DNA of 64,000 nt, from assembly GCA_001005265.1 (NCBI GenBank), contig CP011392.1, forward strand, positions 992,001 through 1,056,000. The letters run 5' to 3'. Under the pieces are notes generated by a model that worked only from the letters and a program-made list of their open reading frames with translations, had not been told where the DNA came from and made no database searches. A program made the position numbers and the translations under genes. How positions within the stretch are numbered: the stretch's first letter is position 1; every line of letters starts with the position of its first letter. Positions 25,859 through 31,809 of the stretch are shown here, piece by piece. The stretch is from Dehalogenimonas sp. WBC-2 (GTDB taxonomy: Bacteria > Chloroflexota > Dehalococcoidia > Dehalococcoidales > Dehalococcoidaceae).

Positions 25859-27644
<1,786 letters not shown>

Positions 27645-29419: not shown

Positions 29420-30427
29420 ATGGTGACCCGTATTGGTATCAATGGCTTTGGACGTATCGGCCGGCTGACTTTCCGCGCTATGAAAAAATACCACCCGGAT
29501 GAACTCGAAGTTGTGGCTATCAACGATCTGGCTGACACCGCCACCAATGCTCATCTATTAAAATATGATACCAGTTACGGCGCCTATAACGGCACGGTTG
29601 AAAGCGGTGACGGCACCATCATCGTTGATGGCAAGACCGTTAAGGCTTTTTCGGTCAGAGAACCTAACAAAATCCCATGGCGGGATTACGGCGTCGATAT
29701 TGTCATCGAATCCACAGGGCTCTTTGCAGACCGTGCCAAAGCCGCCTGGCATCTTGAAGGCGGCGCTAAAAGGGTGATCATCTCCACTACATCCGCCAAC
29801 GCCGATATAACCATAGTCATGGGTGTCAACCAGCAAAACTACCGGCCAGAAGAACATGTAGTCATTTCAAATGCCTCCTGCACCACCAATTGTGTTACCC
29901 CTATCGTTAAGGTTCTATTTGACAAATTCGGCATTGAAAAGGCCCTGATCAATACCGTCCACGCCTATACCAATGATCAGAGCCTGCTGGATGTTTATCA
30001 CAAAGACCTGCGGCGCGCCAGAGCCGCCGCGTTGAACATCATCCCTACTTCTACCGGGGCCGCCAAGGCGGTTGCTCAGGTAATCCCTGAACTGCAAGGA
30101 CTTATTCATGGCATTTCCCTGAGAGTGCCAGTGGGCAGCGTATCAATTGCGGATGTAACGGCCATTGTCGGCCGTGACGTTACTGCTACCGAGGTCAATG
30201 CCGCACTTGAACAATCGGCGGCCAGCGATCTAAAAGGTATTTTAGCTTTTTGCAAAGAAGAACTGGTTAGCTCTGATTTTAAGGGCAATCCCTCTAGCTG
30301 TATCATCGATGCACCTTCAACCATGGTCATGGCAGGCAACATGGTCAAGGTGCTGGGTTGGTATGATAACGAGTGGGGCTATTCCACCCGCCTGGGTGAC
30401 CTGGCTGCCTTCATCGGCAACAAATAA
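29420..30427 (+). CDS. gap: glyceraldehyde-3-phosphate dehydrogenase, type I
   Basis: 335 aa, normal length. NAD-binding GINGFGRIGRLTFRA, catalytic SNASCTTNCVTP, the HAYTNDQSLLD loop and WYDNEWGYS are all intact. The residue after the first strand's end (INDLAD) is consistent with NAD use. Strong AAGGAGGA seven bases before the ATG. Confidence 0.97.
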   Translation: MVTRIGINGFGRIGRLTFRAMKKYHPDELEVVAINDLADTATNAHLLKYDTSYGAYNGTVESGDGTIIVDGKTVKAFSVREPNKIPWRDYGVDIVIESTGLFADRAKAAWHLEGGAKRVIISTTSANADITIVMGVNQQNYRPEEHVVISNASCTTNCVTPIVKVLFDKFGIEKALINTVHAYTNDQSLLDVYHKDLRRARAAALNIIPTSTGAAKAVAQVIPELQGLIHGISLRVPVGSVSIADVTAIVGRDVTATEVNAALEQSAASDLKGILAFCKEELVSSDFKGNPSSCIIDAPSTMVMAGNMVKVLGWYDNEWGYSTRLGDLAAFIGNK

Positions 30428-30446: not shown

Positions 30447-30478
30447 AACAAGCGGGTGCGATAATTCACCCGCTTGTT
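30447..30478 (+). terminator. terminator-like hairpin after gap
   Basis: A perfect 12-bp stem (30447-30458 with 30467-30478) with an 8-base loop; the following T run is weak (CTATGT). Confidence 0.55.
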
Positions 30479-30578
30479 CTATGTAGCTTGCTATTACTAA
30501 CCAATTACCGTAGTTATGGTTGACACTGTGGCCGCGTAAAACTAAAATGGCCTTAGAAGTTATCGTTTGGAGGGTTTA

Positions 30579-31760
30579 ATGAAGCTGATAGTGGTTGGAT
30601 TAGGCCAAGCTGGCAGCCGAATAGCTGATGAATTCGCCCGTATTAATAAAAGGGCGCAGAGCCAACGCGGCATTGAAATATGCCCAGGAATTTTTGCCGT
30701 CAATACCGACGCCGCCGATCTCACCGGGCTCACCACCATTGAACCGGATTATCAGCATCGGATTTTGATCGGAGGACGCAAAACCGGCGGTCATGGCGTC
30801 GGCAAGATCAATGAACTCGGCGCAGAGGTAGCCCGGGCTGATGCTGACAAAGTTATCGACGCCTTAAGGAGCGCCCGTCACTTCTATGAAGCAGATGCTT
30901 TTCTTCTGGCAGCCAGTTCTGCTGGCGGCACTGGTTCCGGCTCTATTTCTATCATCGCCCAACGCATAAAAGAGCGCTATCCTGACAAGCCTCTCTATTC
31001 ACTGCTGGCGTTGCCTTTTGAACATGAACGAGACACTGAAGAGCGGGCCTCCTACAACTCAGCTGTCTGCCTCAAATCTATTTATTCTATCTCAGACTGT
31101 GTGTTTCTTGTTGATAATCAGCGCTATGTTATGAAGGACGCATCACTAGGCAACAACATGTCACGCATCAATGAGCTTATTGTTGAACCATTTTATGATT
31201 TGTTGTGCGCAGGTGAGGAAAAAAATCCAAAGTTTATCGGTGCCAAGACTTTGGATGCTGGCGATATTATCCAGACTCTTTCCGGATGGTCAGTTTTGGG
31301 TTCAGGTCAATCCGACCTCAGTAAATCATTCAGTTTATTTGAACGCAGCACTGACTTCCGTAAAAAAACTTCCGAGACTCACAGAGGTATCCAGGCCATG
31401 GATGAAGCCATCAGTGAAATGTCATTAAAGTGCAATCCCAAGGACGCCGGACGCGCTATATATCTGGTTTCAGCACCGGCCAAAGAAATGAACATGGACA
31501 TGATGCGGGAACTTAATGAATGGATGCGGGAGTTATGTCCCAATGCCATTATCCGAAATGGTGACTATCCCCGCGGCTCCAACAGATTGACCGTAACTGT
31601 CATTCTTTCCGAACTCTCCGACGTGGAAAGAGTCCGAAACTTCTACTCCGATTCTCTGAGCCTGATCCCGATTATTAAACAACGCCAAGTGGAATTACGT
31701 CACAAGCTTGAAGATATAAACGATATGGGCAAAGATATCCCTTCGCTTCTGGAAGACTAG
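30579..31760 (+). CDS. tubulin/FtsZ-superfamily GTPase (not canonical FtsZ)
   Basis: 393 aa from the ATG at 30579, preceded by GGAGGG. The tubulin signature AGGTGSG (residues 115-121) matches the G-box consensus, and the N-terminal VVGLGQAGSRIADEF is the first nucleotide loop. The possible T7 loop is RINELIVEPFYDLL. It lacks FtsZ's usual GGGTGTGAAP and its C-terminal FtsA/ZipA-binding tail; it more resembles CetZ- or TubZ-like groups. GTP-driven polymerisation is known for the superfamily; a role in cell shape or DNA segregation is inference. Terminated just downstream and transcribed alone. Confidence 0.85.
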   Translation: MKLIVVGLGQAGSRIADEFARINKRAQSQRGIEICPGIFAVNTDAADLTGLTTIEPDYQHRILIGGRKTGGHGVGKINELGAEVARADADKVIDALRSARHFYEADAFLLAASSAGGTGSGSISIIAQRIKERYPDKPLYSLLALPFEHERDTEERASYNSAVCLKSIYSISDCVFLVDNQRYVMKDASLGNNMSRINELIVEPFYDLLCAGEEKNPKFIGAKTLDAGDIIQTLSGWSVLGSGQSDLSKSFSLFERSTDFRKKTSETHRGIQAMDEAISEMSLKCNPKDAGRAIYLVSAPAKEMNMDMMRELNEWMRELCPNAIIRNGDYPRGSNRLTVTVILSELSDVERVRNFYSDSLSLIPIIKQRQVELRHKLEDINDMGKDIPSLLED

Positions 31761-31776: not shown

Positions 31777-31809
31777 AACAGCCTCGCCAATTGGCGAGGC
31801 TGTTTTTTT
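31777..31809 (+). terminator. intrinsic terminator after the tubulin-like gene
   Basis: A perfect 14-bp inverted repeat (31777-31790 with 31791-31804) followed by seven T residues. Confidence 0.9.

Follow-up and report, generated by a model that had tools for sequence, protein, structure and literature searches.

The window analysed here, a stretch of 64,000 nucleotides of the Dehalogenimonas sp. WBC-2 chromosome, carries a gene for a tubulin-superfamily protein, and the question raised by the locus is to which tubulin family the product belongs and what it might do in a bacterium thought to lack a peptidoglycan wall. An earlier note on this DNA had proposed a CetZ- or TubZ-like protein serving cell shape or DNA partition in a way not described for this group.

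The gene and its transcription signals

Features of the locus are collected in Table 1. The tubulin signature AGGTGSG reported in the earlier note is present within a Pfam Tubulin GTPase domain that scored far above chance (E 4.7e-32, 112.2 bits against a cut-off of 33). The gene had been said to lie alone between two terminators. The downstream terminator was confirmed, but the hairpin upstream, though stable, has no good T run, was not called by the terminator search and is only a likely terminator. For this reason transcription of the CetZ-like gene on its own is rated as likely and not higher. Promoter-like sites were no commoner in the region than expected from shuffled sequence (4 found, 5.0 expected).

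Table 1. Features of the CetZ-like locus, in window coordinates.
Feature	Position	Strand	Extent	Basis and remarks
Enolase gene	26367..27644	+		Part of conserved surroundings; named by eye
GAPDH gene	29420..30427	+		Upstream of CetZ-like gene; named by eye from sequence
Hairpin, likely terminator	30447..30478	+		Strong hairpin after GAPDH, weak T run; fold z -4.7
Promoter-like site TTGACA-17-TAAAAT	30520..30548	+		Consensus match only, 11/12
GGAGGG, likely ribosome-binding site	30569..30574	+		Read by eye
CetZ-like GTPase	30579..31760	+	393 aa, stop included in span	Single open frame, ATG to stop; ORF, domain, PDB-sequence and fold evidence
Tubulin signature GGTGSG	30924..30941	+	Residues 116-121	Six residues, each kept in 89-92 of 92 relatives
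T7 loop D..D	31254..31265	+	Residues 226-229	Aligns with CetZ1 D215/E218
C-terminal peptide DIPSLL	31734..31751	+	Residues 386-391	
Intrinsic terminator	31777..31804	+		12 pairs and T run; fold z -6.6

Assignment to the CetZ family

By computed family and fold, the 393-aa protein is a CetZ-type tubulin-superfamily GTPase. The Pfam CetZ_C domain was matched at 7.5e-20 (71.6 bits, above the curated cut-off of 21.6); the NCBIfam ftsZ equivalog model gave 54.6 bits where 295.2 are required, and no match to the FtsZ C-terminal domain (FtsZ_C) was found in the protein. A sequence search of the PDB was led by Haloferax volcanii CetZ1 (4.8e-42), followed by CetZ2 (1.3e-28). An AlphaFold model with a mean pLDDT of 88.9 was built from an alignment of 34 rows, comprising the window protein (P0001) and archaeal or archaeal-type CetZs, a composition that may pull the model towards CetZ. 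Fold searches with this model returned CetZ1, CetZ2 and Methanosaeta CetZ as the top three structures (Z 45.7, 45.5 and 39.6), against 35.9 for the best FtsZ and 33-35 for tubulin folds.

The GTP-binding residues, loss of which would have spoken against a working GTPase, and the T7 residues are intact in the alignment. Here the T1 glycines are conserved in 91 of 92 relatives, D226 of T7 in 87 and an acid at position 229 in all 92 (D in 91, E in one). D226 and D229 align with the T7 acidic pair D215/E218 of CetZ1. Five paralogues among the 92 relatives have lost D226 and four the GGTGSG signature, and therefore some CetZ-like copies may be non-hydrolysing. The diverged paralogues L125_9, L153_7, L158_6 and L161_13 have neither GGTGSG nor the C-terminal peptide and are possibly non-hydrolysing partners.

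Phylogenetic position

Two trees, restricted to CetZ-type and FtsZ rows, were calculated. A quick tree of 98 rows recovered the window type as one group (SH-aLRT 89) with FtsZ apart at 100. A more careful tree was built from 73 rows, with nine long or degenerate ones of the quick tree removed and 34 of 56 window-type rows kept; in it the 12 FtsZ rows again stand apart (100/100), and the archaeal CetZs together with an archaeal-type set from Dehalococcoidia form one clade (96/100). The window type falls outside that clade and is itself one clade in 42% of bootstraps, to be read as a clade or a grade. Grouping inside FtsZ, one of the outcomes the earlier note had asked to be checked, is thus not seen, nor is a place inside the archaeal CetZ clade. 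Because of the latter the protein is called CetZ-like and not canonical CetZ; as judged from the trees, it belongs to a deep CetZ-like bacterial lineage.

The archaeal-type Dehalococcoidia CetZs, 5 rows in the tree, nest with Hecatellales and Hadesarchaea (98/95) and, on this placement, are a separate presence of CetZ in the class. Archaeal-type CetZs without a DIPSLL tail were located in other Dehalococcoidia at L164:6802-7914, L165:6317-7420, L166:6495-7553, L167:2533-3642, L175-L179 and L185.

The reading as an FtsZ paralogue was rejected on profile scores, tree and fold. The window protein resembles FtsZ in its GTPase core and in a DIPxFL-like terminal peptide, but it fails the FtsZ model, has no FtsZ_C domain, belongs to a separate clade and is not encoded beside ftsA.

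The C-terminal peptide

The protein had been described as being without the FtsZ C-terminal tail. This appears to be mistaken: in spite of the missing FtsZ_C match, it ends in GKDIPSLLED, a peptide resembling the FtsZ C-terminal peptide, and the FtsZs of the same genome carry the tails ELEIPAFLR and ELDVPSFLR. In sequence, DIPSLL resembles the FtsZ peptide DIPAFL. FtsZ tails of the DIPxFL kind bind FtsA, ZipA or SepF.

Complete ends were available for 90 of 92 relatives, of which 86 have [ILV]Px[LIVF] within the last 16 residues and 76 the strict DIPSLL-type pattern at the very end. Among 896 other genes the looser pattern occurred in 24 and the strict pattern in none; the strict pattern was written after the tails had been seen. 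The conserved Leu is followed by one residue in 69 of the 86 motif-bearing tails, and four divergent paralogues have no tail peptide. Comparable ends (ELESLF, IKPLF, IEPLFE) were found at 62 of 77 archaeal CetZ loci; those of the archaeal-type Dehalococcoidia CetZs differ. The short motif [LIV]x[SPDAE]L[FL] stands at the end of most euryarchaeal CetZs (L189-L254), and a literature search found no paper describing a CetZ C-terminal motif.

Host genome and distribution

The genome of 1.73 Mb is a single contig with five Tubulin-domain genes, comprising two FtsZs and three CetZ-like genes (the window gene and those at 879 kb and 900 kb). Each ftsZ sits directly after an ftsA, which answers the question, left by the earlier note, of whether true ftsZ is also present. 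Two complete ftsA-ftsZ pairs (L065:6322-8687 and L066:6561-8942) thus occur in one small genome, and only one of them is followed downstream by a gene (L065:9241-11433) for a long, Ala-rich rod that has a membrane segment at its C-terminus.

Dehalococcoides mccartyi, according to the accessible text of one paper, has no dcw cluster or peptidoglycan and an S-layer-like wall, and dcw loss is dated there to the ancestor of Dehalococcoidales and SAR202 (PMC10608941); Dehalogenimonas genomes are likewise described, in the accessible text of another, as being without peptidoglycan synthesis genes (PMC13390414). The premise of a missing peptidoglycan wall fits the present genome. A search for penicillin-binding protein (PBP) transpeptidase domains, positive in 10 of 14 control genomes, found none in it. 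Matches to the MreB profile were limited to the two ftsA genes and a 649-aa frame taken to be DnaK. SepF was considered as a receptor for the tail and rejected, there being no match in this genome while 7 of 14 controls were positive.

Of 101 genomes sampled from the order, 90 had CetZ_C matches, often with 2-5 copies. The class sample gave matches in 32 of 148 genomes and the phylum sample in 22 of 350, every one of the 22 within the class. PBP transpeptidase domains occurred in 62 of the same 148 class genomes, with no overlap with the 32 CetZ genomes (Fisher p 1.5e-9, a statistic that ignores phylogeny), and 54 had neither. At the least, the CetZ-type genes in these samples occur only in the part of the class that lacks PBPs; the exclusion may reflect one or two ancestral events. 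One CetZ-like gene, L119:6915-8099 on the minus strand, is broken by a TAG stop, and another genome, G096, likewise has one TAG inside a match.

Neighbouring genes and rod proteins

The surroundings of the window gene are conserved in pieces: a 162-aa gene, enolase, a 333-aa gene, GAPDH and CetZ, and elsewhere dnaX, ybaB and recR (the last three named by Pfam, enolase and GAPDH by eye). In clade A, that of the window gene, GAPDH is adjacent in 11 of 14 cases and enolase lies within four genes in 8 of 14.

Rod proteins of 405-910 aa are encoded between or beside CetZ genes. They have Pro-free helical stretches, mostly a 25-residue repeat, and a hydrophobic period near 3.57-3.61. By composition, 33 of 1416 genes were classed as rods, 32 of 1080 in CetZ neighbourhoods and 1 of 32 in the two FtsZ loci; none of the 304 genes in control DNA (20 stretches, six genomes) was so classed. 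A C-terminal motif of the SRLEFLARMY type occurs in 32 genes, each of which lies no more than three genes from a clade-B CetZ, in a convergent arrangement in 31 cases. Counted from the CetZ side, a rod lies within three genes in 32 of 36 clade-B cases, 2 of 14 in clade A, 0 of 9 in clade C and 0 of 13 in clade E. The composition threshold, the motif pattern and the clade lists were set after part of the data had been seen. Loci L063-L082 were exploratory and L089-L128 and L149-L168 were chosen for CetZ matches regardless of rods; the clade-B counts in the exploratory and later sets were 13/14 and 19/22. The clade-B genes with no motif-bearing rod within three genes are L120_5 (the last gene of its contig stretch), L076_7, L099_5 and L116_7, the last of which does have a rod with a differing motif.

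The rod of the present genome lies at 876-879 kb, beside the clade-B CetZ and not the window gene. Searches with four and then three rods gave no Pfam or NCBIfam names. When this genome was searched with the single rod protein L063_5, the matches were the query itself, the rod next to ftsZ and a further, weak site. Membrane-anchored rods with a C-terminal hydrophobic segment form a second type, seen beside ftsZ (L065_9) and near three CetZ genes (L116_5, L123_9, L127_1). In many genomes a charged protein of about 160-190 aa (L067:8423-8947 and relatives, 20 genes matched), with no Pfam or NCBIfam match, is encoded between the rod and the clade-B CetZ and is a possible third component.

Proposed role and alternative explanations

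The role that we consider probable, with some reserve, is that of a membrane-proximal cytoskeleton of shape or envelope in wall-less cells of the S-layer type, docked through its tail and, for clade B, working with a rod partner. The protein would polymerise head to tail with GTP, which would be hydrolysed as the T7 acids of a subunit come into contact with the GTP bound by the following one. Attachment to a membrane adaptor would be through a helical C-terminal stalk and the DIPSLL peptide, much in the manner of the FtsZ tail; with SepF not found, FtsA is the foremost candidate for that adaptor. Division would be left to the FtsZs and the filament would organise either the shape of the cell or its S-layer-type envelope, and the clade-B paralogue probably works with the 25-residue-repeat rod protein encoded tail to tail beside it. 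Several points count against this account: the window gene itself has no rod neighbour, glycolytic genes are the commonest neighbours of clade A, the convergent CetZ-rod pair is not an operon, and the CetZ-like tail could bind something else or nothing.

That the rod is a neighbour by synteny only, with no functional tie to CetZ, is a serious possibility, if short of an even chance: the pair is convergent, not co-transcribed, in 31 of 32 cases, and enolase, GAPDH, dnaX and recR around it are frequently conserved as well, but it is kept where that context is gone (L063, L080, L082), and rods are missing from clades C and E. A diverged division tubulin, acting in the Z-ring with FtsZ and sharing FtsA through the DIPSLL tail in the manner of a second archaeal FtsZ, would account for the FtsZ-like tail; division without peptidoglycan may need extra polymers, and several tubulin-family genes are common in Dehalococcoidales. 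This is nevertheless rather unlikely given the two ftsA-ftsZ pairs already in the genome, a tree position and fold of CetZ type and the lack of division genes beside the window gene.

The proximity of GAPDH and enolase to clade-A genes could instead mean that the protein scaffolds metabolic enzymes in an assembly for glycolysis or biosynthesis; a role of this kind is raised for archaeal CetZ, whose gene neighbours concern nucleotides and cofactors, in the accessible text of Brown and Duggin 2023 (PMC9856176). Such a scaffold is improbable here, as the window gene is parted from GAPDH by its own promoter-like site and the hairpin, and housekeeping neighbours can be plain synteny. The proposal of TubZ-like DNA partition found no support and is hardly credible: the protein is a tubulin-superfamily GTPase other than FtsZ, and TubZ is placed near CetZ and archaeal FtsZ in the available part of Santana-Molina et al. 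(PMC9871819), but the gene is chromosomal in a one-contig genome, its neighbours are metabolic and signalling genes with no partition genes seen among them, and its plasmid relatives are haloarchaeal only, with none in phages. A viral or plasmid origin was also rejected, with no relatives in viral contigs (single-protein scan) or phages and only haloarchaeal plasmid matches (29 records), as was a defence role, for which the sole indication was a weak PADLOC DUF499 match (E 5.9e-4, 15.8 bits) taken as chance.

The shape or envelope cytoskeleton preferred here can be extended, tentatively and with considerable doubt, to a two-part system of murein-less bacteria, in which CetZ-like filaments tethered by an FtsZ-style tail would be spaced or cross-linked by 25-residue-repeat rods of up to 900 aa. 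Dehalococcoidia would then have kept CetZ-type polymers at least twice, as a deep bacterial lineage and as an archaeal type near Hecatellales and Hadesarchaea, each only in PBP-less lineages, so that CetZ would recur, in two domains of life, as the partner of wall-less envelopes of the S-layer type.

Relation to known systems

The window protein shares with archaeal CetZ (H. volcanii CetZ1, 4b46, and CetZ2, 4b45) its domain architecture, fold, T1/T4/T7 residues and a short acidic-hydrophobic C-terminal motif (ELESLF or IKPLF in archaea, DIPSLL here), as well as coexistence with two FtsZs and, from papers, wall-less S-layer-type hosts. It differs in having only about 30-35% identity, in lying outside the archaeal clade, in D for E at the T7 position in 91 of 92 members, in a shorter M-loop region, of 21 residues where five archaeal rows have 24-37, and in its bacterial neighbour genes. 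BtubA/B with its partner BtubC and other bacterial rod cytoskeletons are comparable in that a tubulin-family polymer has a possible helical partner; BtubA/B belongs to another tubulin subfamily, and the present rods carry a 25-residue repeat and match nothing in Pfam or NCBIfam.

A conserved, multi-copy CetZ-like family in bacteria with no murein, PBP or clear MreB would allow a test of the idea that, wherever a wall has been lost, cells take their shape from CetZ polymers. The shared C-terminal motif and the rod offer concrete binding partners to seek, in archaea too, where few partners of CetZ are known.

The claim that such proteins are not described for this group stands in part. In the accessible text of Santana-Molina et al. 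2023 (PMC9871819), the only relevant paper found on CetZ in Chloroflexota or Dehalococcoidia, Dehalococcoidia CetZ-like sequences matching the CetZ_C model are named, in one sentence; they are very probably the same family. That text calls them sparse and paraphyletic, whereas they are near-universal in the order here, and it records genes for coiled coils in the vicinity of archaeal tubulin-like genes but is silent on the neighbours in Dehalococcoidia. Its account does not extend to the archaeal-type second set, the motif at the tail, the rod or the restriction to PBP-less genomes, and for the last three no paper was found in a search outside which most subscription papers lay. The Dehalococcoidia CetZ-like kind is therefore already known; new, within these searches, are its near-universality in the order and its absence from all 62 sampled class genomes with a PBP domain. 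CetZ is called archaea-specific in the accessible text of both Brown and Duggin 2023 (PMC9856176) and a 2024 MinD paper (PMC11621097). CetZ-like proteins were also found in archaea named as Bathyarchaeota or Nitrososphaeria (L180, L182-L184, L186), beyond the euryarchaeal range given in the available part of Brown and Duggin.
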